From Mycobacterium sp. Root265 (lineage in GTDB: Bacteria; Actinomycetota; Actinomycetes; Mycobacteriales; Mycobacteriaceae), in NCBI RefSeq assembly GCF_001428895.1, contig NZ_LMJA01000017.1, positions 1-40,962 on the forward strand: a DNA stretch of 40,962 nucleotides, in the 5' to 3' direction. Below the pieces are notes generated by a model that had not been told where the DNA came from, did not search any database, and saw only the letters and a list, made by a program, of their open reading frames with translations. Position numbers and translations under genes: made by a program. Below, piece by piece: positions 3,708-39,004 of the stretch. Position 1 is the first letter of the stretch. Each line of letters starts with the position of its first letter.

Positions 3708-5384
3708 TCAGACGAGGCGCCCGGCCGCGTGTTGCGCTATGACGTAGCCGAACACCAATCCTTGCCCGATGGTGGCACCGGCACCGGGATAGGTCTTCCC
3801 AAACGTGTTCGCAGAGACGTTGCCGAGTGCGTACAGACCGTTGATCGTGGATCCGTCTTCTTTCAGTACCCGACCTCGGGTATCGGCGCGCACACCACCG
3901 CAGGTGCCCAGGTCGCTCAAGACCACCTTGACCGCGTAGAACGGTCCGGAGTTCAGTGGACGCAGGTTGGGATTCGGGGCGACGGTCGGATCGCCGTAGT
4001 AACGGTCATAGGCGCTGGCGCCTCGGTGGAAGTCGGAGTCGACGCCGGCATCCGCCAAGCCGTTGAAGCGGTCCATCGTGGCGGTGAAAGTCGCCGCCTC
4101 AATGCCGATCTGGGCGGCGAGGGACCCGAGATCGTCACTGCGGTGGGCTATCCCGGCGTCATACCAAGCCTGGGGGATCGGCATGCGTGGGAAGAGTTCG
4201 GCGGCAAGTAGATAGCTGTTCCGGTACCGCTGGTCGAAGATCATCCACATCTCCTCCACCGGCACGCCCGACTGCTCGCGACGCAACAGTTCCTGGCCGA
4301 AGGACATGTAGTCCGTTGCCTCATTGATGAAGCGTTCACCGTTCTGATCGACGAGTAGGCACCCCGGCAGCGAGCGTTCGGCGAGCATGACCGTGGATTC
4401 GCCACCGGGTAGCGGGGCAAAGGCGGGGAACCACCACGCCTGATCCATCAGTGCGGTGTCGGCGCCCAGGTCCTGAGCCAGGCGGATACCGTCGCCGGTG
4501 TTGCCTTCAGCGCCCAGGCTGGCGTTGTCTCCCAAGCGTTCCGACTGGAACTTGTGCCGCCAACTCATCAGGTGATCGAAACCGCCGGTGGCGAGCACGA
4601 CACCGCGGCGCGCGGTCACCGTCACTCTGGTGCCGTTCCGGCCTACGACCGCACCGGTCACCCGATCGCCATCTTCGACCAGTTCCAGGAGAGGTGTATC
4701 GGTCCAGATCGGGATGCCCGCCTGGACGACGCCGGCGAACATACCCGCGGCCAGTGCCTGGCCGCCGGCAGCGTAGCGACGACGCAGCGCCAGACCACCG
4801 ATGCCCTGCGCGGCGCGCAGCAGGATGCGCGGCCACGATTTGCGGGGAGTGCGTGCCATCAGGTTCAACCAGCGGTAGTCGGCACCGGTGACCGGCATCG
4901 GAAACGAAGACTTCATCACACCGGGGCGGAGGCGGGCCAATTCAGTCCCGAGCTTCGCGGTGTTGAATGGCCGGCACTCGCAGGTGCGCCCTACGGCACT
5001 GCCGCCGGGTTGCTCCGGGTGGTAATCCGAATAGCCCTTGGCCCACTGAAATTTCATCGGGGTGGTACGCCGCAGCATGTCGATGGTGGCCGAGCCGAAA
5101 TCCACAAACGCGTCTACGCGGTCCAGTGCAGCGTCCTGGCCCACCAGGGTTTTCAGGTAGGTCCGCCCCTTGTCCACGCTGTCCGAAGATCCGCTCTCGG
5201 TGAGGACAGGATTTCCCGGCATCCAGAACGCGCCACCGGAACGAGCGGTCGAACCTCCCACATAGGCAGTCTTCTCCACAATCAGGGTGGACAACCCCAA
5301 CTCGTGTGCGGCGAGCGCCGCGGCCATTCCGGTACCTGAACCGACGACGAGAAGATCGACGGTGATGTTCTGCAGATCAGTCAC
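3708..5384 (-). CDS. kstD: 3-ketosteroid delta1-dehydrogenase, second copy
   Basis: A 558-residue FAD enzyme, close in length to M. tuberculosis KstD. The Rossmann motif VVGSGTGMAAALAA is at 13-26. Catalytic positions are visible: Y118/Y121 in GYSDYHPEQPGG, Y359 in NEATDY, and Y532 with G536 in TYPGAG. Two long stretches shared with mycobacterial KstD, TPMKFQWAKGYSDYHPE and the ASAYDRYYGDP region, make this the more canonical delta1-KSTD of the window. The start is GTG 5384 without an obvious ribosome site. It is divergent from kshA, and the 132-base gap holds a KstR-like site. KstD and KshA act together to open ring B, so joint control from this gap makes sense. It converges with padR at 3688. 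Confidence 0.92.
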   Translation of the reverse strand: MTDLQNITVDLLVVGSGTGMAAALAAHELGLSTLIVEKTAYVGGSTARSGGAFWMPGNPVLTESGSSDSVDKGRTYLKTLVGQDAALDRVDAFVDFGSATIDMLRRTTPMKFQWAKGYSDYHPEQPGGSAVGRTCECRPFNTAKLGTELARLRPGVMKSSFPMPVTGADYRWLNLMARTPRKSWPRILLRAAQGIGGLALRRRYAAGGQALAAGMFAGVVQAGIPIWTDTPLLELVEDGDRVTGAVVGRNGTRVTVTARRGVVLATGGFDHLMSWRHKFQSERLGDNASLGAEGNTGDGIRLAQDLGADTALMDQAWWFPAFAPLPGGESTVMLAERSLPGCLLVDQNGERFINEATDYMSFGQELLRREQSGVPVEEMWMIFDQRYRNSYLLAAELFPRMPIPQAWYDAGIAHRSDDLGSLAAQIGIEAATFTATMDRFNGLADAGVDSDFHRGASAYDRYYGDPTVAPNPNLRPLNSGPFYAVKVVLSDLGTCGGVRADTRGRVLKEDGSTINGLYALGNVSANTFGKTYPGAGATIGQGLVFGYVIAQHAAGRLV

Positions 5385-8634: not shown

Positions 8635-8680
8635 CGCCGGGTTTGGAACTCACACTGCCGCAGTCGGCGTTCAGCCGGCG
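8635..8680. terminator. Nested hairpin between convergent genes
   Basis: CGCCGG at 8635-8640 pairs with CCGGCG at 8675-8680. Inside are GAAC/GTTC and ACTG-ccg-CAGT pairings, giving an interrupted stem-loop across the 40-base gap between the flavoprotein and the isomerase gene. There is no T-run. It could end transcription from both sides, but the stem is imperfect. Confidence 0.35.
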
Positions 8681-9048
8681 ATCACATCCGACGCCGCGAA
8701 ATAGCTGCGCAGGGACGTGATGGCGCCGCTGTCGTCGAACACCACGGTGTCGATCGGTTGCAGGCGCATCGGAGTGTCACCGACGGTGAACGTGATCGTG
8801 AAGACGAAGGCCGCCTCGGCGCCTGCGATCCGGAGGAGGGTCAACTCCGTTCGGCGATCGAGGCTCTCCAACGTGCTGAAGAATTCTCGGATGGCATTCC
8901 GGCCGGAGCGAACGTCCCTTCCGACCGGATCTTCTACCGTGGCATTCTCGGCGAACAGCGCGACCAGTTCATCGGCACTGCCAGACTGGAGCAGCTCGAC
9001 GTACCTTCTGACGGTCTCAGCTGCCGCATCGGCCGTGTGCTTCGACAA
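8671..9048 (-). CDS. Delta5-3-ketosteroid isomerase
   Basis: A 125-residue NTF2-fold protein that moves the 5-ene of 3-oxo-5-ene steroids to the conjugated 4-ene. It closely resembles the Comamonas testosteroni isomerase: RRYVELLQSG, LVALFAENATVEDPVG, SGRNAIREFF, and PIDTVVFDDSGAI. The catalytic set is intact: Y16, D40 and D100, corresponding to Tyr14, Asp38 and Asp99. The start is TTG 9048, chosen because AGGAGG lies 4 bases upstream and the conserved region begins soon after. It is the last gene of a sulfotransferase-MBL-SDR-ADH operon, 21 bases after the ADH. Such dedicated isomerases are uncommon beside actinobacterial steroid genes, where the 3beta-HSD usually does this step. Confidence 0.9.
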   Translation of the reverse strand: MSKHTADAAAETVRRYVELLQSGSADELVALFAENATVEDPVGRDVRSGRNAIREFFSTLESLDRRTELTLLRIAGAEAAFVFTITFTVGDTPMRLQPIDTVVFDDSGAITSLRSYFAASDVIAG

Positions 9049-9069
9049 TGTTCCTCCTCGACCGCCTGA

Positions 9070-10080
9070 TCAACCGAGCGTGATGATGACCTTGTCGGCT
9101 GCGCCCGGCGTCGAAACACAGCGCAATGCCTCATCGAGCTCGTCGAATCCGAAGGTGTGGCTGATGATGAGCCGGTACTTCTCCCAGTTATCGACGATGT
9201 CCTCGGTCACTTCGAAGATCTCGGTCGGGTAGCCCATCGATCCGATAACCGTCAGTTCGTTGCTCATCACGTTCATGAGGTCGAGGGTTACCGGTTCCTT
9301 GTGAACGGCGACAACGCCGAGTTTGGCGCCGCGCTGAGCGAGGCCGAAGGCCGTGTCGATGACCGTCGGTACCCCGGCGGCATCAAGATAGATGTTCGTG
9401 CCGGCCCTGTCGGGCCACATCGAATCGCCCGTTCCGTGTAACTCGATCAGACGAGCGGTCAGGTCCTCCTCTTGGGAGTTGATGACAGCGTCAGCGCCTA
9501 CCCGCAGCGCCTTGTCCAACCGGTCGGGCAAGACGTCGGCGACCACGACATGTTTGACGCCAGCCGATTTCAACGAAATCACGATGCCCAGACCGATGGG
9601 GCCGGCGCCGAAGACCAGCACCTGGTCGGTGGACCGGGGAGCAACCTGGTTCACCGCGTGCCGTGCCACCGCCATCGGCTCGTTGAGTGCGGCGACCTCG
9701 AAGGGAACGTGACCGGGGATGACTTCGATACTTCGGCCGCGCACCGCGTCTTTGATGAGGAGGTAATCGGCCAGGGCCCCGGTGGTACCACCATTGCCGA
9801 TGATGTCTTCGGGTACGGCCATCGGATTGATCACCACCCGGTCACCGACGGCGATGTCCCGCACGTTCTGGCCGACCTCAATGACCTCGCCGGCCGGTTC
9901 GTGCCCGATCGGCATGCTGCCCTGATGTGGCGGCAGCCCACCGATGGAGATGTAGAGGCTGTCCGAACCGCAGATGCCGCACGCGCGGATCTTGACCAGC
10001 ACGTCATCAGGACCGGCTGTCGGCTTGGGCACCTCCACGATCTCGGTCTTGCCTGGCGCAGTGATGATGGCAGCTCTCAC
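9070..10080 (-). CDS. Zinc-type medium-chain alcohol dehydrogenase lacking the structural-zinc loop
   Basis: A 336-residue MDR dehydrogenase. The start is GTG 10080 with AAGGAAG about 6 bases upstream; the longer reading overlaps the neighbouring SDR. Catalytic zinc ligands are C37 (CGICGSD), H60 and E61 (IGHEPAG). The NAD(P) fold begins at VLVFGAGPIGLG. The lobe that normally carries four structural-zinc cysteines reads NPMAVPEDIIGNGGTTGALADY, with no cysteine at all, so that site is lost. The fold otherwise follows threonine/sorbitol dehydrogenases. Together with the SDR upstream it may oxidise a steroid hydroxyl (3beta-OH being the attractive choice before the isomerase downstream), but the substrate is unproven. 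Confidence 0.8.
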   Translation of the reverse strand: MRAAIITAPGKTEIVEVPKPTAGPDDVLVKIRACGICGSDSLYISIGGLPPHQGSMPIGHEPAGEVIEVGQNVRDIAVGDRVVINPMAVPEDIIGNGGTTGALADYLLIKDAVRGRSIEVIPGHVPFEVAALNEPMAVARHAVNQVAPRSTDQVLVFGAGPIGLGIVISLKSAGVKHVVVADVLPDRLDKALRVGADAVINSQEEDLTARLIELHGTGDSMWPDRAGTNIYLDAAGVPTVIDTAFGLAQRGAKLGVVAVHKEPVTLDLMNVMSNELTVIGSMGYPTEIFEVTEDIVDNWEKYRLIISHTFGFDELDEALRCVSTPGAADKVIITLG

Positions 10081-10126
10081 AATGATCTTCCTTGAGTGGC
10101 TAGGCGGGTGGGGTGGGTCGGGCAGC

Positions 10127-10876
10127 TCATAACACGCTGTAGCCGCCGTCGACGACGAGCGCCGATCCGGTGCTGTACGACGCATTGGCGCTACACAAAT
10201 ACAGGATCGGATTGGCGATCTCTACAGGTGTGGCGAATCGGCCGAGCGGGGTGTGATCGATCTGGTCTTGCTTGACGTCGGGCACGTAGTCCATGGGTGC
10301 GGTCATCCGGGTGGTGACCAGTCCCGGAACGACAGCATTGACCCGGATGCCGTCGACGGCCCACTTCGCGGCGAGGTTGCGGGTCAGCGCGAGCACACCG
10401 GCCTTGCCCGATCCGTAGCCGGGAACAACCGGTACCGCACGGATCGCCGCCATCGAGGCGAGCATGACAACGCTCGCGCCGCCGTCGGATTCTGACGTCT
10501 TGAGCGCACCATGCAGACCTTCGCTCAGCCGGAAGGGCGCGAGCAGATTGACTTCGACCGATGCGGTGAATCCCGCCGCGGTGGATTCATCGACTCCGCC
10601 GGGAAAATTGGCGCCTGCATTGTTGATCAGGATGTCCAACACAGTGACCGAGTCGGCGAGTGCCTCTATACCGGCGGGGTCGGTGAGAGACAGTTGGCGG
10701 TACTCCAGTCCCGACAGGTCGACGTCGTAGTCCTCGGGTTTCGCTCTGGTTCCGGTGATCGTGACGTGCGCCCCGCTGTCGCGGAGTAGCGACGCCGTCG
10801 CATGACCGATGCCGCTTGTGCCGCCGGTGACCAGCGCCGTCGCACCGGTGAAGTCGAAATGGACGCGGTTGGTCAC
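10127..10876 (-). CDS. Short-chain dehydrogenase/reductase
   Basis: A 249-residue classical SDR. The cofactor motif TGGTSGIG is at 17-24, NNAG at 85-88, and the catalytic triad is S141, Y154 and K158 (YGSGK). The C-terminus VVDGGYSVL is typical of tetrameric oxidoreductases. The start is GTG 10876, overlapping the MBL gene stop by 4 bases (GTGA), so the two are coupled; ADH follows after 46 bases. In this operon it is a candidate hydroxysteroid dehydrogenase, for example for 3beta-, 7- or 17-hydroxyls. It lacks an obvious Arg/Lys after the glycine motif; the bases of cofactor choice cannot be read safely. The family is certain, the substrate is inferred from context. Confidence 0.85.
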   Translation of the reverse strand: MTNRVHFDFTGATALVTGGTSGIGHATASLLRDSGAHVTITGTRAKPEDYDVDLSGLEYRQLSLTDPAGIEALADSVTVLDILINNAGANFPGGVDESTAAGFTASVEVNLLAPFRLSEGLHGALKTSESDGGASVVMLASMAAIRAVPVVPGYGSGKAGVLALTRNLAAKWAVDGIRVNAVVPGLVTTRMTAPMDYVPDVKQDQIDHTPLGRFATPVEIANPILYLCSANASYSTGSALVVDGGYSVL

Positions 10877-12117
10877 GACAGTTCCTCAATTCGTTTGCGC
10901 AGCCATGCGGCTTCCCAGAAGTTGGCGCTGTCTCGCAGCAGCATCTCGTGTGCGGTGATCAACACCTGTGTGGCCTCCACATTGTCGGCTTCGGCGTGGT
11001 TCACCAAGTCGGCGAGTCGAATCGCCCGTACGGGTTCGCCCGTGTCCAGCAGCAATCGGGCGCGTTCGAGAATTGCTGTCGTGCCGGCGATGTCCAGCAA
11101 GTCAGATTCGGTGCGGCCCGGAGATTCGGCATACAGCTCCGCTGTGGACTGATGGTGAAACCAGCCCGCATAGTTCTCCCAGATTGCGCGGATGTTCCAG
11201 CGGACCATGCCGTAGCCCTCGCCCACCTGCAGATCCGGCGGCAGCGCCACCTCACGCATGAGGGTGTGAACGTCCTTGCCGGCGTTCATACCCTCGACGG
11301 TGCGGTCATGGATGTAGGTCACAGCATCACGCAGCCTGGTCAACTCCCACTCGATGCGGTCCTTTCCGGTGATCGGTCCGAAGTGCCCGGTGAGCAACAT
11401 CTCTGCGCCCAGGGCGCGCACCCGATCAATGGATTCCACGACCGTCAGCGCATCGCGGTAGCGGTCGCCACGCATCGTGACGAGATTGGGAATGTGACCG
11501 AACAGCGCCCCGAAAACATTGCCGCACAAGCAGACACCGTCGTCGGGGAGCCAAGCCACCAGGCTGTCGGTGGTTTCACCGCCGGGTGTGGCATACAACT
11601 CGAGCACGCGGTTGCCCAAGCTGATACCGAAGCTGTCCTCGAAGGTGATCGTCGGGGTCGGGACACTCTGTGATGGGACCGATCCGAATCGTGATGAGGT
11701 GTTCTCTATCGTCGCCATCACCTTGTCGAGCCAAGCGAAGGACGAGTTCTGCGCGCGAAAAGCCGCCAACAGATCATTGTCGCGACGCCAGGTCTTCCAA
11801 TTCGCTTGTGCGACGATCTGACTGTCCGGGTCGCTCACGGAACCGAGGCCCCCGACGTGGTCGACGTGTCCCTGCGTCAGGATGACGTAGCGAATCGGTG
11901 CTGGGTCGATAGCGTCGTAGTTGGCGCGATGCACGGGCCCTTCGAAGCCCATACCGGTATTGAGAACGATCCGGCCGTCATCGGTGGCCAGCATGAACGA
12001 ATTGGACAAACCAGGCGACATCCAGATGCCGGGGCCCACCTCCCGGGCGGGTGCACCGGCGCCGACGATGTCCTCGGCACCCGGTCGATCGAGATAGAGC
12101 GGCCGATAGGTGCTCAC
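10873..12117 (-). CDS. Alkylsulfatase-like metallo-beta-lactamase-fold protein with altered metal site
   Basis: A 414-residue MBL-fold protein with the layout of SdsA-type alkylsulfatases: MBL domain (about 25-275), then a helical dimerisation domain with GMVRWNIRAIWENYAGWF, then a C-terminal part. The hallmark motif reads TQGHVDHVGG at 81-90, where TH.H.DH is usual, so the first metal His is Gln82. The region that normally offers a Glu ligand (AE.V...FPNLYT) reads GNVFGALFGHIPNLVT, with Asn in the Glu place. H84, D86, H87 and the later TGHFGP His remain. It may bind one metal or have another reaction. It starts at GTG 12117, overlapping the sulfotransferase stop by 4 bases. Hydrolysis of a steroid sulfate or ester is an appealing but untested role. 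Confidence 0.75.
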   Translation of the reverse strand: MSTYRPLYLDRPGAEDIVGAGAPAREVGPGIWMSPGLSNSFMLATDDGRIVLNTGMGFEGPVHRANYDAIDPAPIRYVILTQGHVDHVGGLGSVSDPDSQIVAQANWKTWRRDNDLLAAFRAQNSSFAWLDKVMATIENTSSRFGSVPSQSVPTPTITFEDSFGISLGNRVLELYATPGGETTDSLVAWLPDDGVCLCGNVFGALFGHIPNLVTMRGDRYRDALTVVESIDRVRALGAEMLLTGHFGPITGKDRIEWELTRLRDAVTYIHDRTVEGMNAGKDVHTLMREVALPPDLQVGEGYGMVRWNIRAIWENYAGWFHHQSTAELYAESPGRTESDLLDIAGTTAILERARLLLDTGEPVRAIRLADLVNHAEADNVEATQVLITAHEMLLRDSANFWEAAWLRKRIEELS

Positions 12118-13367
12118 ACTTCCTCCCGGACGTCGAAGCGGTCGAAATAGAACGCGAAACGCGAGCGGACCTCTGATGGTGTCCGGCCGAAGTGCCCTTG
12201 CAGGTCGTAGCGCAGGCTGCCGTGCTTGCCCCGGGGGTTGTCATCGAGGTAGTGGCGGAACGCGGCCTGCGCATCTGCGGTCATCTCGGTGCCGCTGGTG
12301 GCGTACAGCCTGCCCAAGATCTCCATCTCATTGCCGTTGAGGTGGTGAAAGGAGATGTCCGTGCTCTGTTCGGCAGGAATCAGTTCGCGGTCCCGTACAC
12401 AGGCGCGCAGCAACCGCTCGATACGGTCGATCCAGTAGTCGACGAGACCGGACGGATCAATTTCCTTGCGGCGGATGCGATCTCCGTATGCCAGCATGGT
12501 GACCGCCGACTGGATCACCGCCACCGGATCGCGGTGGGTAAACGCAACGGTGGCATCGGGGAAGGTACGGATCAGCGGACCGAGTTGTTCACAGTGCTGC
12601 GGTGACTTCAGCACCCACCGTCGTGGACCTCGCAGAAAAGTCAGCGCCTGCAGAGTTGTCCGCAAGTATGCGTAGTGGACGTCCTGGTCGAGCGCGAGAT
12701 AGAAGTCTCGCCACTTCGGTACTCGGGCATGCCACTCCAATACGTAGCTGGCGAAGTCCAGGTCGAGAAGTTCGACCTCTTCCTCGATCGCCTGGGGAAA
12801 GCGGTCGTGCATGGCCTGCACGAGCGGAGTCATCGTCATCGCTGCTTCATGCTCGGCAGTGCTGCGGGCGAACCGCGGATCGACGCCGTCGGCATCCGGT
12901 CCTTCGCCGCGTAGCGGGAATGGTTCCTGGCTTTCCCAGTAGGGCAGTGCTCGGCGCCTGGAGTCTGCCGCAATCAGATTGACCAAATGTGTTGTTCCCG
13001 AACGAGGTAGACCAACGACGATGATCGGCTTCTCGATGTCGATATCGTGAATCTCAGGATGCCGGCGCAGCAGGTCGGTCAGCAGCAGACGCTGAGACAG
13101 CAGGCGCACGATGCGGTTCCGCAGGATGAAGCGGTTCAGATTCGTGTTGCCGCCGTCGGAGTCGGCGGCATCCGCGTATACGCCGAGTCGGCTGCGGAAG
13201 TCTACCGGCCCGAAATCGTCCAATCCGGTGTGCTTCATCGCCTCTTCGATGAGCACGTCCGGGTGGAGCTCGATCGGCAACCCGGCGAAGTGGCCGAGTA
13301 TCTCTTGCTGGGCCGGGGCCAGAACCGGCTTTGTCAGATCGTCGATCGTCAGCGTGCTTGTCTGCAT
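12114..13367 (-). CDS. PAPS-dependent sulfotransferase family protein
   Basis: A 417-residue member of the Sulfotransfer_3 family. The 5'-phosphosulfate loop is VVGLPRSGTTHLVN (117-130), and the 3'-phosphate region includes WVLKSPQHCEQL (251-262) and THRDPVAVIQSAVTM (277-291). An N-terminal 110 residues of unclear fold precede it, as in many mycobacterial paralogues. The ATG at 13367 has GGAGGT 7 bases upstream. It is the first gene of a five-gene operon (MBL, SDR, ADH, isomerase) and is divergent from an IclR regulator. Cytosolic sulfotransferases of this type move sulfate from PAPS to hydroxyls; here the acceptor might be a sterol. Some family members may have drifted to other roles, so activity is likely but not sure. 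Confidence 0.85.
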   Translation of the reverse strand: MQTSTLTIDDLTKPVLAPAQQEILGHFAGLPIELHPDVLIEEAMKHTGLDDFGPVDFRSRLGVYADAADSDGGNTNLNRFILRNRIVRLLSQRLLLTDLLRRHPEIHDIDIEKPIIVVGLPRSGTTHLVNLIAADSRRRALPYWESQEPFPLRGEGPDADGVDPRFARSTAEHEAAMTMTPLVQAMHDRFPQAIEEEVELLDLDFASYVLEWHARVPKWRDFYLALDQDVHYAYLRTTLQALTFLRGPRRWVLKSPQHCEQLGPLIRTFPDATVAFTHRDPVAVIQSAVTMLAYGDRIRRKEIDPSGLVDYWIDRIERLLRACVRDRELIPAEQSTDISFHHLNGNEMEILGRLYATSGTEMTADAQAAFRHYLDDNPRGKHGSLRYDLQGHFGRTPSEVRSRFAFYFDRFDVREEV

Positions 13368-13395
13368 TCAGGGACCTCCGCGCGCCAGGTGTCGA

Positions 13396-13419
13396 ATATT
13401 CGTTGTAATATCCGAATAT
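13396..13419. promoter_or_regulatory. Candidate IclR operator: 7+7 inverted repeat
   Basis: ATATTCG (13396-13402) and CGAATAT (13413-13419) are perfect inverted repeats around a 10-base spacer. The left arm is also part of the palindrome CGAATATTCG (13393-13402), and CGAATAT recurs directly 20 bases on, two helical turns. The site covers the IclR -10 region and touches its ATG, in a 52-base gap shared with the divergent sulfotransferase operon. This is where an autoregulating IclR protein would bind. Confidence 0.6.
13406..13411 (+). promoter_or_regulatory. -10 element for leaderless iclR transcript
   Basis: TAATAT is a near-ideal -10 hexamer, 8 bases before ATG 13420, with no ribosome binding site between. 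This supports a leaderless message and the shorter start. The hexamer lies within the inverted repeat at 13396-13419. Confidence 0.55.
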
Positions 13420-14337
13420 ATGAACGCCAACCTAGATCCGGCTCAGCGGCACGGTCAAGACCCATCTCCGCCTACCCGACGTGTCATAGACGTCATCGAG
13501 CTGCTGGCCGATACTCTCGGGCCGCCGTTGACGCTCGCCCAAATATGCCGTCAGCTGCGGATAAGTCGATCAACCGGGCATGCCATTCTGGCCACACTGG
13601 CCGCGGCCGACTGGGTTTCGCGCGACCCACTCAGTGGGACATACTCGCTCGGCGGCAATTTTCCCCGGCCGCAGCCGACGAGCATGCCGGTGACGAGGAA
13701 GCTACGCGAACCCTTGGCCCGATTGAGCGCCGCAATAGATATGGCCGTGTGCGTTTCGGAAGTACAGGCCGGCCACATCGCAGTCGTCGAGTCGGCGGCT
13801 CCGGACACCGCGCCTGCGCGCGTGGCGGCCGGTCAGCGGCTGCCCTTCGTTGCGCCCTTCGGGCGCGAATTCGTCGCGTGGGCGTCCGCGGCGACACGCG
13901 ATGAGTGGCTGGAATCTGCCGGACCGGTCAACGATGTGTTCCGCGTCCGTATGCCCCATGTGCTGGACGAAATTCAGCGGCGCGGATATGGCATCGAGCG
14001 GCTCAGTGATCCTCTCCTGCGGGTATATTCGGCACTCTTGGCGCTGGACAGCGGCGAAGAGCCCGATCCCGTAGCGGTGCGGCTGGCCGGCGCCGTCGCC
14101 GATCTGACGATCGTCGACTTCCTGCCGGGTGAGCTGGCCGATGTCGCAGAGTGTTCGCTCGCAACGATCTCGGCGCCGATCTTCGACGCTCGTGGTGAAG
14201 TCGTCATGACCGTGTCGGCGCAGCCCTACACGCACCTCACGGTGGACAAGGTGCGCTGGATCGGCGATCGGGTCCGCGAGTTCGCCGGGCATGCACATTC
14301 ACTCATGGCGGGTGCGCTCACCGCCGGCGATCATTGA
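13420..14337 (+). CDS. IclR-family regulator of the sulfotransferase/isomerase operon
   Basis: A 305-residue regulator. The start is ATG 13420 (MNANLDPAQRHGQD); a longer in-frame reading reaches back into the sulfotransferase gene and is rejected. The winged helix-turn-helix is at about 20-82: RRVIDVIELLADTLG, LTLAQICRQLRISRSTGHAILATL, WVSRDPLSGTYSLG. A GAF-like effector domain follows, with AAGQRLPFVAPFGREFVAW and DPLLRVYSALLAL. It is divergent from the sulfotransferase-MBL-SDR-ADH-isomerase operon across a 52-base gap holding an inverted repeat. IclR proteins are repressors or activators that bind small metabolites; here the effector is probably a steroid or steroid derivative. The gene ends before a strong hairpin at 14432. 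Confidence 0.87.
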   Translation: MNANLDPAQRHGQDPSPPTRRVIDVIELLADTLGPPLTLAQICRQLRISRSTGHAILATLAAADWVSRDPLSGTYSLGGNFPRPQPTSMPVTRKLREPLARLSAAIDMAVCVSEVQAGHIAVVESAAPDTAPARVAAGQRLPFVAPFGREFVAWASAATRDEWLESAGPVNDVFRVRMPHVLDEIQRRGYGIERLSDPLLRVYSALLALDSGEEPDPVAVRLAGAVADLTIVDFLPGELADVAECSLATISAPIFDARGEVVMTVSAQPYTHLTVDKVRWIGDRVREFAGHAHSLMAGALTAGDH

Positions 14338-14484: not shown

Positions 14485-15561
14485 TCAGGCGAACTGGAAC
14501 GCGCTCAACGGAGCCTCTTCTGGATAGGTCGCGGGTCCTCCGAGGTCATAGCCGGCGTTCAACGCGCCGATGAAGGCAGCGTCATGCAGCGGGGCGCTGG
14601 GGATGTCGAGCTTGAGGCCCTTCTTGTTGAGATCGTCGACCATCATGTCGATCGCCTTCTCGATGGTGATGTCGTCTGAATGATCCATGTTCTTCTTCAA
14701 CTCGTCGGAGTCTTCAAACACTTCGGCCGACCAGTGCACCAGGAACCGAAGGTCGTCGGTGTGATGACGGGCGATCACGTTCTCACCGTTCTTGAGCACC
14801 CAGTGGTCACGGGAAGCGGGATCGCCGGCGAAGACGGTGTCGAACTCCAGGCCGGCCGGAACCTGTTGATCCAGGGGGCCATTGGCTTCACCGCGGTGCA
14901 TCAGCATCTCGTTCTGCACGACGACGCCGCGGTTGTACACCGGCGGCATCAAACGTTGGGGAGCCTTGAGTGGGCCTTCAGGCCAGTAGGTGAACCCGCT
15001 GCCGGCATCGTGGGAGAACCAGGTGATGACTTGGGCCATCTTGATCAGGTAGTCCTGGAACAGGCCGGACTTGCCCATCACACTGGTCAGCCAGGTGGGA
15101 GCGTTTTCGTATCGGACGCCACGGAAGCTGGGAGAATCCAGATGGCCGGGATCGCGGTTGGCGCATGGCCCGTTGATGTTGAACAGCATCATCTCAGGCT
15201 TCGCGTACTCAGCGCCCCAGTACGACTTCGCCTGCGTGAGGAAATCCGCGTTGTAGAAGCAGTCATGCAGTTCTGGGTATAGCACCGTGCCGTGATTGGC
15301 GAGGAAGCCGCGGAAAGTCGGCGTGAGGAACAGGTCCAGGGTGGGAGTGAAGCCCTCCGGGAACTTGCCGCTCATCGTGGCCATCAGTTCCTCGGGTGAG
15401 GCGAAGTGCTGAGCGATGATCAGCCGCCATGGGGCATCCTTGCGAACGACCTCGAGCAGGCGATCACGCTGATCGTCGGTGTAGACGTTGTCGATCTCGC
15501 GTGGTGGTGAAACGGGGCGAAGGATGTCGGACAGCTCCATCCTTCGATCATCGGTGAGCAT
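14485..15561 (-). CDS. Unrecognised protein with an HxD...H metal-site pattern
   Basis: A 358-residue soluble protein that I cannot place in a named family. ATG 15561 has AAGGAG 8 bases upstream; GTG 15564 immediately before it is also possible. Counting from the ATG, H140-x-D142 in DPGHLDSPSF and H222 in NEMLMHRGEANG are about 80 residues apart, the layout of a 2-His-1-carboxylate iron site in 2-oxoglutarate/phytanoyl-CoA-type dioxygenases. Aromatic-rich strands (ITWFSHDAGSGFTYWPEGPLK) lie between, as in a double-stranded beta helix. No signal peptide or membrane segment is seen. It closes the long minus-strand operon headed by fadD, or has its own promoter in the 119-base gap upstream. An oxygenase acting on a steroid intermediate is a hypothesis only. 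Confidence 0.6.
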   Translation of the reverse strand: MLTDDRRMELSDILRPVSPPREIDNVYTDDQRDRLLEVVRKDAPWRLIIAQHFASPEELMATMSGKFPEGFTPTLDLFLTPTFRGFLANHGTVLYPELHDCFYNADFLTQAKSYWGAEYAKPEMMLFNINGPCANRDPGHLDSPSFRGVRYENAPTWLTSVMGKSGLFQDYLIKMAQVITWFSHDAGSGFTYWPEGPLKAPQRLMPPVYNRGVVVQNEMLMHRGEANGPLDQQVPAGLEFDTVFAGDPASRDHWVLKNGENVIARHHTDDLRFLVHWSAEVFEDSDELKKNMDHSDDITIEKAIDMMVDDLNKKGLKLDIPSAPLHDAAFIGALNAGYDLGGPATYPEEAPLSAFQFA

Positions 15562-15603
15562 CACGGGGACTCCTTTTCTTGGTACCGGCGTTGTCGGACG
15601 CCA

Positions 15604-25450: not shown

Positions 25451-27370
25451 ATGACGATCGCTGTGACCGTGGCCGCCGGCGAGAAATCGCTGGACCCAGA
25501 GGAACTGCGTGCGAACCTGCGCCAAGCCGACGCCGGCATCCTGGTGGCGGTGCTGGCCCAGCTGACCGGTGACGACGCCGTCGCGGACCGGTACGTCGGC
25601 AAGATTTCATTCACCCCCGATCCACCCGAACAGGTGGGCACAACCGATCCGGACACCCAGGCGGCGCTGGTCGAGGCAGTGATGGCCGCGCTTGAAGCAC
25701 CGCGCCCGGCTGGTGCGCTGCCTTCCGATGACCCCGGCCTGTTCGCACGCGTCGCCCCGTTGGCGTTCGGCAGCGAGGTCGGCGAGGAGTACATCGGCCT
25801 GTTGTTGGAGCAGGGTGGATTCCATCCACCTCAGCCGGTGCTGCCGAGAACCGCGACGCTGCCGTCAGATTTCAAGGTCGTAATCGTGGGCGCCGGCATC
25901 GCCGGGATGGCCATGGCGCTGGAGTGCGGCGCAGCGGGCGTCGCGTACGAGATCATCGACCGCAACCCCGAGGTGGGGGGCACGTGGTTGACGACCCGCT
26001 ACCCGGGCATCGGTGTCGACACACCGTCGGCCTACTACTCGCTGTCCCGCGATATCAACGGCGACTGGAGCAGCTATTACCCACAGGGCGCGGAGTACCA
26101 GCGTTACCTGCAATCGGTGGCGGACAAGAACGCGTTGCGCGGTCACACCAGGTTCAACACCAGCGTCGAAGCGCTGTGGTGGGACGAGGAACGAAAGATG
26201 TGGGAGGTGCGCACCGTCACGGCCGACGGCGCCCGCGAGGTGTTCTACGCCAATGTTGTGGTGCCCGCGGCCGGTTACCTCAATCGCCCGCGCTGGCCTG
26301 AGCTCGCAGGGAAGGAGACGTTCGGCGGCGTGAGCGTCCATACCGCCGAGTGGAATCCCGAGCTGTCGCTGCGCGGGAAACGAGTGGCCATCATCGGTGC
26401 CGGATGCACCGCAGTCCAGATCGTGGACGCCTCGGTCGACGAGGTTGCTCATTTGACGGTGTTCCAACGCCAGCCGCACTGGGTGGCACCGCGCAAACGA
26501 CTGACCGATGACGTGCCCGAGCACCGCCGGTGGCTCAACGCACATGTGCCCTACTACGCCAACTGGACTCGGCTGAAATCCTTCTGGGGTACCGCCGACA
26601 ACAACCATCCCGTGATCATGCGGGACCCGGAGTGGGCGGCAGAACATCTGTCGATCTCGCGGCCCAACGACGTGCTGCTGCAGATGTGCCTGCAGTACAT
26701 CGACCGCGTTTTCGGGGCAGGGTCGGAACTGGCGAAAAAGGTCACCCCCGACTTCGCGCCGTACGGTAAGCGCATCATCCGCGACCCCGGTGGTTACTAC
26801 GCGGCGTTGGCCCGAGAGCATGTCGACGTCGAGGCCAGCGAACCCGCCCGGGTGAACGAACGCGGCATCGTCACCCAGGACGGCCGACAGATCGACCTCG
26901 ACGTGATCATCTACGCCACCGGGTATTACCTGGACTTCCTTTCGACGGTTGATGTCCGCGGCCGCGACGGTCTCAAGCTCACGGATGTGTGGGGCGAGAG
27001 CCCAAGTGCCTACCGAGGCGGTCTGGTTCCGGGCTTCCCGAACATGTTCATTTCTTCTGCCCCCAACTACAGCCCGGGGCACGGCGCCGGACACAATTTC
27101 GGTGTCGAGGTGATGGTGCATTACGTGATGGAATGCCTGCAGTTGATGGCGGAGCGTCAGGCGGAGATGCTGGAGGTGACGCCCGAGGCCTTCGAAGACT
27201 ATGTACGACAGATCGACGAGGCGATGGCGCAGACCGTGTGGTGCCATACGCCCACTGCGCATACCTATTACCGCTCCGGTGGCCGCATCGTCACCGCCTT
27301 CCCGTTCCGTCTGGTCGACGTGTGGCAGAGCCATCGAGCGCCAAAGTCCGAGGATCTCGTCGTCCGGTGA
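25451..27370 (+). CDS. Baeyer-Villiger monooxygenase, long (HAPMO-like) type
   Basis: A 639-residue flavin monooxygenase. ATG 25451 has GGAGG 4-8 bases upstream. About 135 residues precede the FAD motif VVIVGAGIAGMAMALE, an extension like that of 4-hydroxyacetophenone monooxygenase (about 640 residues). The BVMO fingerprint reads FGGVSVHTAEWN, where FxGxxxHxxxW(P/D) is usual, so the last position is Asn. The NADPH fold is VAIIGAGCTAVQ, and the C-terminal region has NMFISSAPNYSPGHGAGHNF. It inserts oxygen next to a ketone, giving an ester or lactone; a steroid ketone fits the locus. The SDR that follows overlaps by 4 bases and could provide the ketone from an alcohol. Confidence 0.88.
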   Translation: MTIAVTVAAGEKSLDPEELRANLRQADAGILVAVLAQLTGDDAVADRYVGKISFTPDPPEQVGTTDPDTQAALVEAVMAALEAPRPAGALPSDDPGLFARVAPLAFGSEVGEEYIGLLLEQGGFHPPQPVLPRTATLPSDFKVVIVGAGIAGMAMALECGAAGVAYEIIDRNPEVGGTWLTTRYPGIGVDTPSAYYSLSRDINGDWSSYYPQGAEYQRYLQSVADKNALRGHTRFNTSVEALWWDEERKMWEVRTVTADGAREVFYANVVVPAAGYLNRPRWPELAGKETFGGVSVHTAEWNPELSLRGKRVAIIGAGCTAVQIVDASVDEVAHLTVFQRQPHWVAPRKRLTDDVPEHRRWLNAHVPYYANWTRLKSFWGTADNNHPVIMRDPEWAAEHLSISRPNDVLLQMCLQYIDRVFGAGSELAKKVTPDFAPYGKRIIRDPGGYYAALAREHVDVEASEPARVNERGIVTQDGRQIDLDVIIYATGYYLDFLSTVDVRGRDGLKLTDVWGESPSAYRGGLVPGFPNMFISSAPNYSPGHGAGHNFGVEVMVHYVMECLQLMAERQAEMLEVTPEAFEDYVRQIDEAMAQTVWCHTPTAHTYYRSGGRIVTAFPFRLVDVWQSHRAPKSEDLVVR

Positions 27371-37333: not shown

Positions 37334-39004
37334 GTGACCGGTCAACGGGATGTGAACGGGCCCGGTGAGTACGCAGCTTCTACCGTTCCTGATGTGAGTG
37401 CGACTCAGGACACTGTCGACGTTGTTGTGGTTGGTGCCGGCTTCGGCGGCCTGTACGCCCTGCACAAGTTCCGCCATCAGGGACGGTCGGTGCGGGTCTT
37501 CGAAGCCGCACCCGAGGTGGGCGGAACCTGGTATTTCAACCGGTACCCGGGCGCGCGATGCGATGTGGAGAGCCTGGACTACTGCTACTCGTTCTCCGAC
37601 GAACTCCAGCAGGAGTGGACGTGGACGGAGAAGTACGCCACGCAACCCGAAATACTTTCCTACATCAAGTGGGTCGCGGACCGCCTGGATCTGCGCAGCG
37701 GAATCACCTTTGACACGAGAGTCTCGTCGGCGGTCTTCGATGAAGACGCGCTGTTGTGGACGGTGACCACCGAGGGCGGTGAGACGGTCCGGTCGCGTTT
37801 TGTGGTGATGGCCACCGGGCCGCTGTCTTCGCCGTTGACCCCGAACATCAACGGCCTCGACAGTTTTGGTGGCGAGGTGTACCACACCGCGCACTGGCCG
37901 CACGAGGGCGTCGACTTCACCGGTAAACGGGTGGCCGTGATCGGTACCGGTTCCTCAGGCATTCAATCGATCCCGATCATCGCCGAACAGGCCGCACGGC
38001 TCTACGTGTTCCAGCGCACCCCGAACTACAGCGTGCCGGCAGGCAACCGCACGCTCGATCTCGACGAAATCAAGCATGCGAAGGACACCTACGCCGAGCG
38101 GCGACGAATGTCGTGGCGCAGCGGCGGCGGGTCACCGCACGTGGCACATCCCAAGATGACGATGGAAGCCAGCCCGGAGGAACGCCGCGCAGCATTCGAA
38201 AAGCGCTGGCAGTTGGGCGGTGTGCTGTTCTCGAAGACCTTCGCCGATCAGATGATCGACATGGACGCCAATGACGAAGCCCGCAAGTTCTACGAGGAAA
38301 AAGTACGCGCCGTCATCGACGATCCCGACGTCGCCGACCTGCTGATCCCCAACGATCACCCGATCGGCACCAAGCGGATCTGCACCGACACCAACTACTT
38401 CGAGACGTACAATCGCGACAACGTAGAACTGGTGAGTGTACGCAAAACACCGATCGAGTCGATCGATGCGACCGGGATCAACAGCTCCGAAGACCATTAC
38501 GCAGTCGACGCGATCGTGCTGGCCACCGGTTTCGATGCCATGACCGGGACGCTGGCCAAGATCGACATCGTGGGCCGTGACGGGCGGAAGCTGATCGACG
38601 ACTGGGCCGATGGCCCGCGGACCTACCTGGGGCTCGGAGTCGACGGATTCCCCAACCTGTTCCTGGTTTCCGGCCCGGGTGCGCCGGCGGTGTTGGCCAA
38701 CATGGTGCTGCACGCCGAGGCACACATCAATTGGATCTCCGATGCGATCGACTACCTCGATGAGCACGGCCTGAGCGCTATCGAAGCGACCACCGATGCG
38801 GTGGACGACTGGGTCGCCGAATGTAACCGACGGGCCGACGGGACGCTGTTCCCCAAGGCGAACTCGTGGTACATGGGCGCGAACGTGCCCGGTAAACCGC
38901 GCGTCTTCATGTTGTTCATCGGCGGTTTCGCGGTCTATCTCGACATTTGCGCCGAGGTCGCCGACGCCGGATACAAGGGCTTCAGCCTGCTCAAGAATTC
39001 GTGA
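37334..39004 (+). CDS. Steroid-type Baeyer-Villiger monooxygenase
   Basis: A 556-residue BVMO. The fingerprint FGGEVYHTAHWP is exact. FAD motif: VVVGAGFGGLYALHKF; NADPH motif: VIGTGSSGIQ. Blocks such as RYPGARCDVESLDY, EKYATQPEILSYI and KRVAVIGTGSSGIQSIPI closely follow the steroid monooxygenase of Rhodococcus rhodochrous, which turns progesterone into testosterone acetate. GTG 37334 gives a length and N-terminal spacing like that enzyme; GTG 37394, with TACCGT 7 bases upstream, is the alternative leaderless start. It is divergent from kshB and is followed after 7 bases by a hydroxysteroid-dehydrogenase-like SDR. C20- or C17-ketosteroids are the likely substrates. Confidence 0.88.
   Translation: MTGQRDVNGPGEYAASTVPDVSATQDTVDVVVVGAGFGGLYALHKFRHQGRSVRVFEAAPEVGGTWYFNRYPGARCDVESLDYCYSFSDELQQEWTWTEKYATQPEILSYIKWVADRLDLRSGITFDTRVSSAVFDEDALLWTVTTEGGETVRSRFVVMATGPLSSPLTPNINGLDSFGGEVYHTAHWPHEGVDFTGKRVAVIGTGSSGIQSIPIIAEQAARLYVFQRTPNYSVPAGNRTLDLDEIKHAKDTYAERRRMSWRSGGGSPHVAHPKMTMEASPEERRAAFEKRWQLGGVLFSKTFADQMIDMDANDEARKFYEEKVRAVIDDPDVADLLIPNDHPIGTKRICTDTNYFETYNRDNVELVSVRKTPIESIDATGINSSEDHYAVDAIVLATGFDAMTGTLAKIDIVGRDGRKLIDDWADGPRTYLGLGVDGFPNLFLVSGPGAPAVLANMVLHAEAHINWISDAIDYLDEHGLSAIEATTDAVDDWVAECNRRADGTLFPKANSWYMGANVPGKPRVFMLFIGGFAVYLDICAEVADAGYKGFSLLKNS

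Follow-up and report, generated by a model that had tools for sequence, protein, structure and literature searches.

A conserved pairing of a sulfotransferase gene with an altered alkylsulfatase relative in actinobacteria: a candidate cassette for catabolism by transient sulfation

Alkylsulfatases of the metallo-beta-lactamase (MBL) fold such as SdsA1, SdsAP and Pisa1 are described as three-domain proteins in part of one source (PMC5426288), and those of the Pisa1 type as enzymes which attack carbon (part of PMC3920027), breaking the C-O bond with inversion whilst a dizinc cluster activates water and a histidine protonates the sulfate (parts of PMC3920027, PMC3725421 and PMC7785958). A relative of these enzymes is encoded in the stretch of DNA considered here, the 40,962 nucleotides at positions 1 to 40,962 of contig NZ_LMJA01000017.1 of Mycobacterium sp. 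Root265 (hereafter the window; it belongs to contig C17 of a genome that comprises 6.67 Mb in 30 contigs), where its gene follows that of a sulfotransferase (STF) and is itself followed by genes for two dehydrogenases and a ketosteroid isomerase. The STF and MBL genes, with the dehydrogenase genes that accompany them, are referred to below as the cassette.

The window MBL shares with SdsA1, SdsAP and Pisa1 the MBL domain and, behind it, the alkylsulfatase dimerisation domain (PF00753 then PF14863, both over cut-off), SdsA1 and Pisa1 being its best matches in the PDB; it differs from them in having a sulfotransferase gene as partner and in the lack of a third (SCP2-like) domain by Pfam, the protein ending at 414 aa. 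Its nearest named relative, at 89% identity, comes from Mycolicibacterium iranicum, in a comparison from which own-genome records may be excluded. The STF has the same domain and the same PRSGTT and THRDP stretches as the Sulfotransfer_3 proteins of PDB entries 2zq5 and 2z6v but, unlike enzymes of that type, it is coupled to an MBL.

Sulfate serves as a leaving group in biosynthesis, in CurM-type sulfotransferase-thioesterase systems and in the formation of the ficellomycin aziridine, and to our knowledge its use as a temporary activating group is known only from biosynthesis. In those systems, as in the reading of the cassette proposed here, sulfation from 3'-phosphoadenosine 5'-phosphosulfate (PAPS) makes a hydroxyl a leaving group; however, they are biosynthetic and employ a thioesterase or an internal nucleophile, where the cassette has an MBL of the alkylsulfatase type. 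A literature search confined to a library of PMC articles found no pair of a sulfotransferase and an alkylsulfatase-type MBL among the titles and abstract openings listed. What appears to be new is a conserved unit built of known enzyme families, its chemistry being a proposal.

The sulfotransferase-MBL pair and its distribution

Conservation of the pair was followed in the best 80 of 236 related stretches (the named loci), of which L063-L074 and L079, here clade A, are of the kind found in the window whilst the remainder make up clade B. All 77 named loci whose upstream sequence extends to 400 bases or more have an STF gene upstream of the MBL gene and on the same strand (clade A 13/13, clade B 64/64; L101, L114 and L129 have less sequence there), the gap being shorter than 150 bases in 75 of the 77 and a gene for a zinc-type alcohol dehydrogenase (Zn-ADH) standing between the two in L093 and L098. 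Of the 79 named loci in which 500 bases or more follow the MBL (all but L075), 63 have a short-chain dehydrogenase (SDR) gene directly downstream of it (clade A 13/13, clade B 50/66). Kinship among the loci has not been removed from these counts or from those given below.

A similar picture was obtained from whole genomes. Across the own genome and 60 relatives, matches to the MBL of at least 57% identity occurred at 19 places in 17 of the 61 genomes and matches to the STF of at least 55% identity at 19 places in the same 17 genomes, the two being neighbours at 18 of the 19; at the remaining place, in G018, the MBL stands at the end of one contig and the STF on a different one. The association of STF and MBL is far beyond chance. 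The possibility that it is a by-product of picking loci by their MBL was rejected, as the reverse search with the STF led to the same 17 genomes and canonical relatives of the MBL are without an STF in the sequence available; in the control, an STF was present there in none of 15 loci of canonical relatives, or of relatives with histidine at position 82 (see below), versus 16 of 17 cassette loci with short flanks. The evolutionarily kept unit is STF plus MBL, usually with the SDR.

Further afield, a sample of 396 genomes from across the phylum contained 12 with matches to profile A1 (E <= 1e-40); at E <= 1e-60, matches were obtained in 36 of 296 genomes in the class of G222 and 16 of 251 in the own family. 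Neighbourhoods were read at 45 places, 37 in that other class and eight in the own family, the profile-match genomes G416, G432, G872 and G934 lying outside this reading. Glutamine occupies position 82 at 44 of the 45 places, and the single His82 locus (L211) has no STF. Of the 36 Gln82 loci in the other class, 33 have an STF no more than 3 kb away and on the same strand; all eight own-family loci have one within that distance, six of them on the same strand. Four loci outside the 45-locus count, L173-L176, hold five MBL copies with an STF beside each. Some loci belong to more than one data set, as eight of the 18 relatives' loci recur among the named 80 and L219 is the same as L088, and the counts are not additive.

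Over these loci the gene order is shuffled and the content recurs (ADH-SDR-STF-MBL, STF-MBL-ADH, STF-ADH-MBL-SDR and MBL-SDR-STF). The same MBL clade also has STFs of a second clade as partners, in L039, L218, L221, L228 and L230; in the STF tree, in which L076 was entered twice, this second clade groups with an unlinked paralog from the own genome (L144) and stands outside the main linked clade (51 tips, support 0.851).

Some individual loci are of separate interest. L173 shares a contig with the named L094, as L176 does with L135, and the contig of L094 and L173 (Mycobacterium colombiense E1334) carries two tandem STF-MBL-SDR cassettes with STFs of different clades. Two Bifidobacterium breve metagenome-assembled genome records (L075, L083) carry mycobacterium-like cassettes (60-61%) and are probably misbinned contigs. 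The STF is split into two frames in L051 (G036), which is L122, and in L043 (G021 contig C8), which is L138, and the MBL is split in L057 (G009); pseudogenes or sequencing errors could account for these, and alignment A1 was built without the broken MBL of G009.

Sequence features of the two enzymes and the supply of PAPS

The zinc ligands of SdsAP are given, in part of PMC5426288, as D196, H197, H367 and E322 and as H192, H194, E303 and E322. By alignment and counting these correspond in SdsA1 to D173, H174, H344 and E299 and to H169, H171, E280 and E299, and the residue calls that follow combine sequence alignment to SdsA1 with the published ligands. On this basis five of the seven aligned zinc ligands appear to be kept in the window MBL, glutamine (Gln82) and glycine (Gly199) replacing histidine and glutamate. 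The same replacements set the STF-linked MBLs apart from SdsA1, SdsAP and Pisa1: the position of H169 holds glutamine in 80 of 80 named loci and that of E299 glycine in 73 and serine in 7, versus histidine in all 14 and glutamate in 13 of the canonical relatives (n = 14). The Gln82 MBLs (56 sequences) form a clade with support 0.938. Retained in common with the described alkylsulfatases, in the window and in 80 of 80 named loci, are the positions of SdsA1 H171, D173, H174, E280, H344, R312, R317 and N307, and we take the arginine, asparagine and histidine positions among them to be the sulfate pocket of alkylsulfatases. As read from the alignment, then, the STF-linked family has lost parts of the metal site and retained other positions shared with alkylsulfatases. 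A further difference from SdsA1, SdsAP and Pisa1 is an insertion with an invariant histidine, His208, which is present in 80 of 80 named loci and aligns close to the position of Pisa1 His317, presumably the proton donor of that enzyme; His208 is a candidate proton donor to the leaving sulfate.

The STF scores well above its Pfam threshold (PF13469, 117.9 bits vs a cut-off of 27), and its PRSGTT (121-126) and THRDP (277-281) stretches, which we take to be the PAPS-binding loop motifs, are at least 98% conserved among 74 relatives (those of the 80 loci with a single STF match of at least 330 aa). By domain and motifs it is predicted to belong to the PAPS-dependent sulfotransferase family. Around its nearest paralog in the own genome (43%, contig C25), no relative of the window MBL was found within the 19.9 kb read. 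Other paralogs of the own genome lie beside DUF1214 proteins (L144, L146) or luciferase-like monooxygenases (L146, L147), and it seems that operons of catabolic appearance in this genome repeatedly include sulfotransferases.

PAPS is made by CysDNC, and CysQ removes the 3'-phosphoadenosine 5'-phosphate (PAP) that remains. Genes for making PAPS stand beside the cassette in five of 124 distinct loci (the 80 named plus the 45, less one overlap). In L172 the order on one strand is ADH-SDR-STF-MBL-P450-CysD-CysNC; in L076 (Nocardia carnea) STF-MBL-SDR precedes CysD and CysNC on the same strand, with a CysQ-like gene next in line; a divergent group of a CysQ-like gene, CysD and CysNC adjoins SDR-STF-MBL in L214 and L215; and the CysNC match of L216 is partial and falls into two pieces. 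The CysD and CysNC proteins beside cassettes exceed the NCBIfam cut-offs, whilst the CysQ-like proteins of L214, L215 and L076 are of the inositol monophosphatase family, those of the first two having CysQ as their best match without reaching its cut-off (115.9 and 104.8 vs 228.8 bits). The genomes with PAPS genes at the cassette have further CysN or CysNC copies, although in G222 the other match covers the CysN part only; in the window genome CysNC-like genes lie on other contigs and none beside the operon. The presence of PAPS genes at the five loci therefore indicates that sulfate is put on, at least there. A CysQ gene at the end of the L172 operon was considered and dismissed, since neither CysQ nor any other match was found there; relatives of the last gene of that operon occur in L171, L206 and L208. 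L171, L172, L206 and L208 share a conserved gene near the MBL, at about 60% identity to the L172 copy, which in L171 bears a weak likeness to xylose-isomerase-type TIM barrels.

Proposed transient sulfation, the steroid setting and rival readings

We give an even chance to the reading in which STF and MBL form a catabolic cassette working by transient sulfation. In this scheme the STF would use PAPS to place sulfate on a substrate hydroxyl inside the cell, and the co-translated MBL would expel the sulfate by cleavage of the C-O bond, leaving either an inverted alcohol, as for Pisa1, or, should the weakened metal site have lost its ability to activate water, an alkene. The SDR and the Zn-ADH, or a Gfo-type oxidoreductase, would then oxidise beside that carbon and the released sulfate would be available for re-activation, whilst in the steroid-cluster version of the window the ketosteroid isomerase would join the cassette. 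That the MBL acts on the product of the STF, that it cleaves the C-O bond, and what the substrate is, are points which we infer. The near-constant co-encoding of an STF with a sulfatase-type protein is easiest to understand if adding sulfate and removing it again yields a changed product. A crude scan found no strongly hydrophobic N-terminus on STF or MBL, and if both enzymes are cytosolic then S-O cleavage would amount to a futile cycle, which C-O cleavage would not; a cycle back to the same alcohol within one compartment would spend PAPS to no purpose, which makes a changed product the economical reading.

A more specific form of this scheme, which we regard as possible but doubtful, is a PAPS-driven dehydration in which an unactivated secondary or tertiary alcohol would be sulfated and the MBL, its dizinc, water-activating site partly lost and its arginine, asparagine and histidine positions kept, would make an alkene as a sulfate lyase. 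If this were true, the MBL superfamily would gain a new activity, and the use of sulfate as a recyclable leaving group would be a new strategy of catabolism, the PAPS/PAP cycle being encoded alongside in some lineages. More generally, the pairing suggests that many actinobacteria use sulfate as a temporary activating group to break down hard-to-attack molecules, sometimes steroids; if so, this use of sulfate would extend to bacterial catabolism, and a widespread MBL clade with new chemistry, which annotation would name alkylsulfatase-like or MBL-fold hydrolase, would gain a function. It would also become testable how actinobacteria treat hydroxyls that are beyond the reach of ordinary dehydratases or dehydrogenases, in steroids and perhaps in other compounds.

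The genes which would carry the later steps are less uniform. In clade A, 12 of 13 loci have a Zn-ADH gene within 4.5 kb, in clade B 9 of 54, and in four loci read where no Zn-ADH was found (L169, L209, L212 and L232) a Gfo/Idh/MocA oxidoreductase gene stands beside the SDR; in L231 (8260-9129) a PhyH-type dioxygenase gene lies between SDR and MBL, in place of a Zn-ADH or Gfo-type gene. Luciferase-like monooxygenases (46 of 81 loci, three of them clade A) and VOC proteins (34 of 81) are often found near clade B cassettes, and queries of both kinds from clade B gave no match in the window. A P450 was considered as a core member and rejected, a close relative occurring beside the MBL in L172, L206 and L208 only. 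No NCBIfam model was over its cut-off among the best 25 of 231 for the SDR, nor was any among the best 25 of 26 for the Zn-ADH, and the PDB matches of the SDR (60 of 166 listed) are generic, with 7alpha-hydroxysteroid dehydrogenases included; these matches tie neither enzyme to steroid substrates.

Several observations weigh against transient sulfation and should be considered with it. The distances of STF and MBL correlate at r 0.96, a value uncorrected for species phylogeny. The STF is on the opposite strand in L217 and L218, and no STF was found nearby in three of the 36 other-class Gln82 loci (L229, L232 and L233); among the three genomes concerned, G518 has a 52% STF elsewhere, whereas the best in G599 and G602 reach 44-46% and may be of the kind unlinked to MBL. 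An SDR is not directly downstream of the MBL in 16 of the 79 named loci with room for it, and 45 of 54 clade B loci showed no Zn-ADH within 4.5 kb, so that later steps vary. PAPS genes occur in only five of 124 loci, one of them partial and the window not among them. Two losses of predicted metal ligands, with a third in one subclade (21 sequences, support 1.0) where the aligned H344 is replaced by arginine (Arg245), could mean a different MBL activity.

This last point leads to the rival which we consider unlikely but would take seriously, namely that the MBL is not sulfate-acting at all and instead hydrolyses another pathway intermediate (for example a lactone, thioester or C-C bond), the product of the STF being stable. 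MBL folds have many functions (part of PMC7785958), and replacement of two of the seven aligned zinc ligands, with that of His344 in the subclade, would fit such a change; nevertheless, the alkylsulfatase dimerisation domain is present, the best solved relatives are alkylsulfatases, and the shared arginine, asparagine and glutamate positions are invariant. Clearly less probable is a sulfate tag, by which the STF would trap or dissolve a hydrophobic alcohol and the MBL later restore the same alcohol. Both the pairing and the supply of PAPS are compatible with a tag, and sulfation generally raises solubility, but the 4-base STF/MBL overlap suggests simultaneous expression, hence a futile cycle, and no transporter family was found among the window proteins scanned with Pfam, which are not every open reading frame. 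Detoxification or export, with the STF inactivating toxic alcohols and the MBL merely correcting over-sulfation, strikes us as very improbable: 38 of 43 clade B cassettes are without steroid genes within 9 kb, as it would allow, but the dehydrogenases and, in places, a P450 or luciferase-like monooxygenase accompanying the cassette look like a pathway and not a shield.

A role in the assimilation of steroid sulfates or 5-ene-3-ols, in which the MBL would desulfate a 3beta-sulfate, a dehydrogenase form the 3-ketone and the isomerase the 4-ene, the STF being a side activity, was in outline the pathway envisaged in the preliminary description. The isomerase is nearest to the SnoaL-like 6p3l and 6p44 and to the Comamonas testosteroni isomerase (E about 1e-22); aligned to the latter it keeps Tyr16, Asp40 and Asp100, which we take to be the positions of the catalytic Tyr14, Asp38 and Asp99, whereas 6p3l has no aspartate at the last of these, and its naming as a true delta5-3-ketosteroid isomerase thus holds at the level of sequence. 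The window also encodes a KstD (3708-5384), over the curated cut-off for 3-ketosteroid-delta1-dehydrogenase, further KstD-like flavoproteins, a KshA-type oxygenase (PF19298), a reductase with a Fer2 domain, an acyl-CoA ligase, acyl-CoA dehydrogenases and an HsaA-like protein below its cut-off (366.5 vs 450 bits), and the surroundings of the operon look like a steroid catabolic region. Genes of KstD, KshA, HsaA or KshB type (at least 50% identity) accompany 9 of 13 clade A loci versus 5 of 43 clade B loci with 9 kb on both sides, so that, for the clade to which the window belongs, the KstD/KshA context proposed earlier appears right. A KshA-like match over cut-off is also commoner in cassette-bearing than in cassette-free genomes (17/26 vs 4/16, Fisher p 0.025), many such matches being far below the score of the window KshA and some genomes incomplete. 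However, this association is weak within the other class alone (11/20 vs 4/16, p 0.096), 9 of the 26 cassette-bearing genomes have no KshA-like match over cut-off, the near-constant partner of the MBL is the STF and not the isomerase, PAPS genes adjoin the cassette in five loci, and the candidate operator has its single exact genomic match at this operon (see below). Of the 13 clade A loci, 8 have an isomerase gene no farther away than 3.5 kb, and in 6 it is both downstream and on the same strand; it is an add-on of the steroid-cluster clade, outside the conserved core. We therefore consider steroid-sulfate assimilation quite improbable: with the isomerase outside the core, no KshA-like match over cut-off in those nine genomes and the zinc ligands of the MBL apparently incomplete, sulfate removal, 3beta-hydroxyl oxidation and a 5-ene to 4-ene shift are unsupported as the function of the whole set. 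Of the conserved five-gene order for which a search had been suggested, the STF-MBL pair proved near-constant and the full order less conserved, the isomerase being in place in 6 of 13 clade A loci; the idea of sulfate cycling gains from this near-constant partnership and from the PAPS genes at five other loci, although none stand beside the operon in the window. Steroids are likely to be one setting of the cassette among others, and the window version may have a role in steroid breakdown.

In the STF-SDR-hypothetical group of the mycobacterial cholesterol region (Rv3529c-Rv3531c) a sulfotransferase-like gene lies next to an oxidoreductase gene, the cassette likewise combining STF and SDR. The sulfotransferase-like gene is listed as conserved hypothetical in part of PMC6429209, and KstR-type sites are listed for the Rv3531c promoter in part of PMC1995591. 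A second locus of the own genome, L145 (contig C13), has a KshA gene, an STF, an SDR and a 421-aa protein without a Pfam match, in a layout like Rv3526-Rv3531c of the KstR region, from which its equivalence to Rv3529c-Rv3531c may be read. It is an STF-SDR pair in a steroid setting, but unlike the window it has no MBL of this kind, and its STF is only 27-28% identical.

Operon layout, regulator and neighbouring genes

The five genes run on the minus strand from 13367 to 8671 in the transcription order STF, MBL, SDR, Zn-ADH and SnoaL-type isomerase (Table 1). All members of the packed set described previously are present, but 4-base overlaps occur at two joints only, STF/MBL and MBL/SDR; gaps of 46 bases separate SDR from Zn-ADH and 21 bases Zn-ADH from the isomerase. 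The Zn-ADH start is a GTG at 10080 with AAGGAAG upstream.

Table 1. Positions of the cassette genes, the aligned metal-site codons and the regulatory features in the window
Feature	Position	Strand	Length	Basis or remark
Sulfotransferase (STF), Sulfotransfer_3	12114..13367	-	417 aa	PF13469 E 1e-33; first operon gene
MBL-fold protein, alkylsulfatase (type III sulfatase) kind, predicted altered metal site	10873..12117	-	414 aa	PF00753 + PF14863
Short-chain dehydrogenase (SDR)	10127..10876	-	249 aa	PF13561 E 5.6e-46
Zinc-type alcohol dehydrogenase (Zn-ADH, MDR)	9070..10080	-	336 aa	PF08240/PF00107
Delta5-3-ketosteroid isomerase	8671..9048	-	125 aa	PF12680
Divergent IclR-type regulator	13420..14337	+	305 aa	PF09339 HTH E 3.1e-8
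Candidate operator ATATTCGG-N9-CGAATATTCG	13393..13419	.	27 bases	between IclR and STF
MBL Gln82 codon	11872..11874	-		at SdsA1 zinc ligand His169; alignment
MBL Gly199 codon	11521..11523	-		at SdsA1 bridging zinc ligand Glu299; alignment
MBL His208 codon	11494..11496	-		invariant in STF-linked family; 4-residue insertion

The IclR-type gene noted earlier at the flank does stand divergently opposite the operon, its helix-turn-helix (HTH) domain being over cut-off and its C-terminal domain just below (23.9 vs 24 bits), and its start is most likely at 13420 and not 13111. An IclR gene lies within 4.5 kb of the cassette in 11 of 13 clade A and 18 of 54 clade B loci. CGAATATTCG of the candidate operator recurs in 11 of the 12 clade A intergenic regions compared, with one base different in L065 (L073 and L074, having no IclR there, did not enter the comparison). 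CGAATATTCG occurs once in the window, and gapped ATATTCGG-N9-CGAATATTCG has one exact match in the 6.67-Mb genome, at the operon, suggesting that the IclR controls this operon alone and does not act on the surrounding steroid genes through this element. The cassette is probably under its own IclR.

Elsewhere in the window, the steroid cluster includes two FMO-like flavin monooxygenases, at 25451-27370 and 37334-39004. The 359-aa protein encoded at 14485-15564 (U359) gave no Pfam, NCBIfam or PDB match, and the thought that it might correspond to the 421-aa protein of L145 was abandoned, there being no similarity by blastp at E 1; it recurs at 80-89% identity in four named steroid-cluster loci (L063, L064, L072 and L079).

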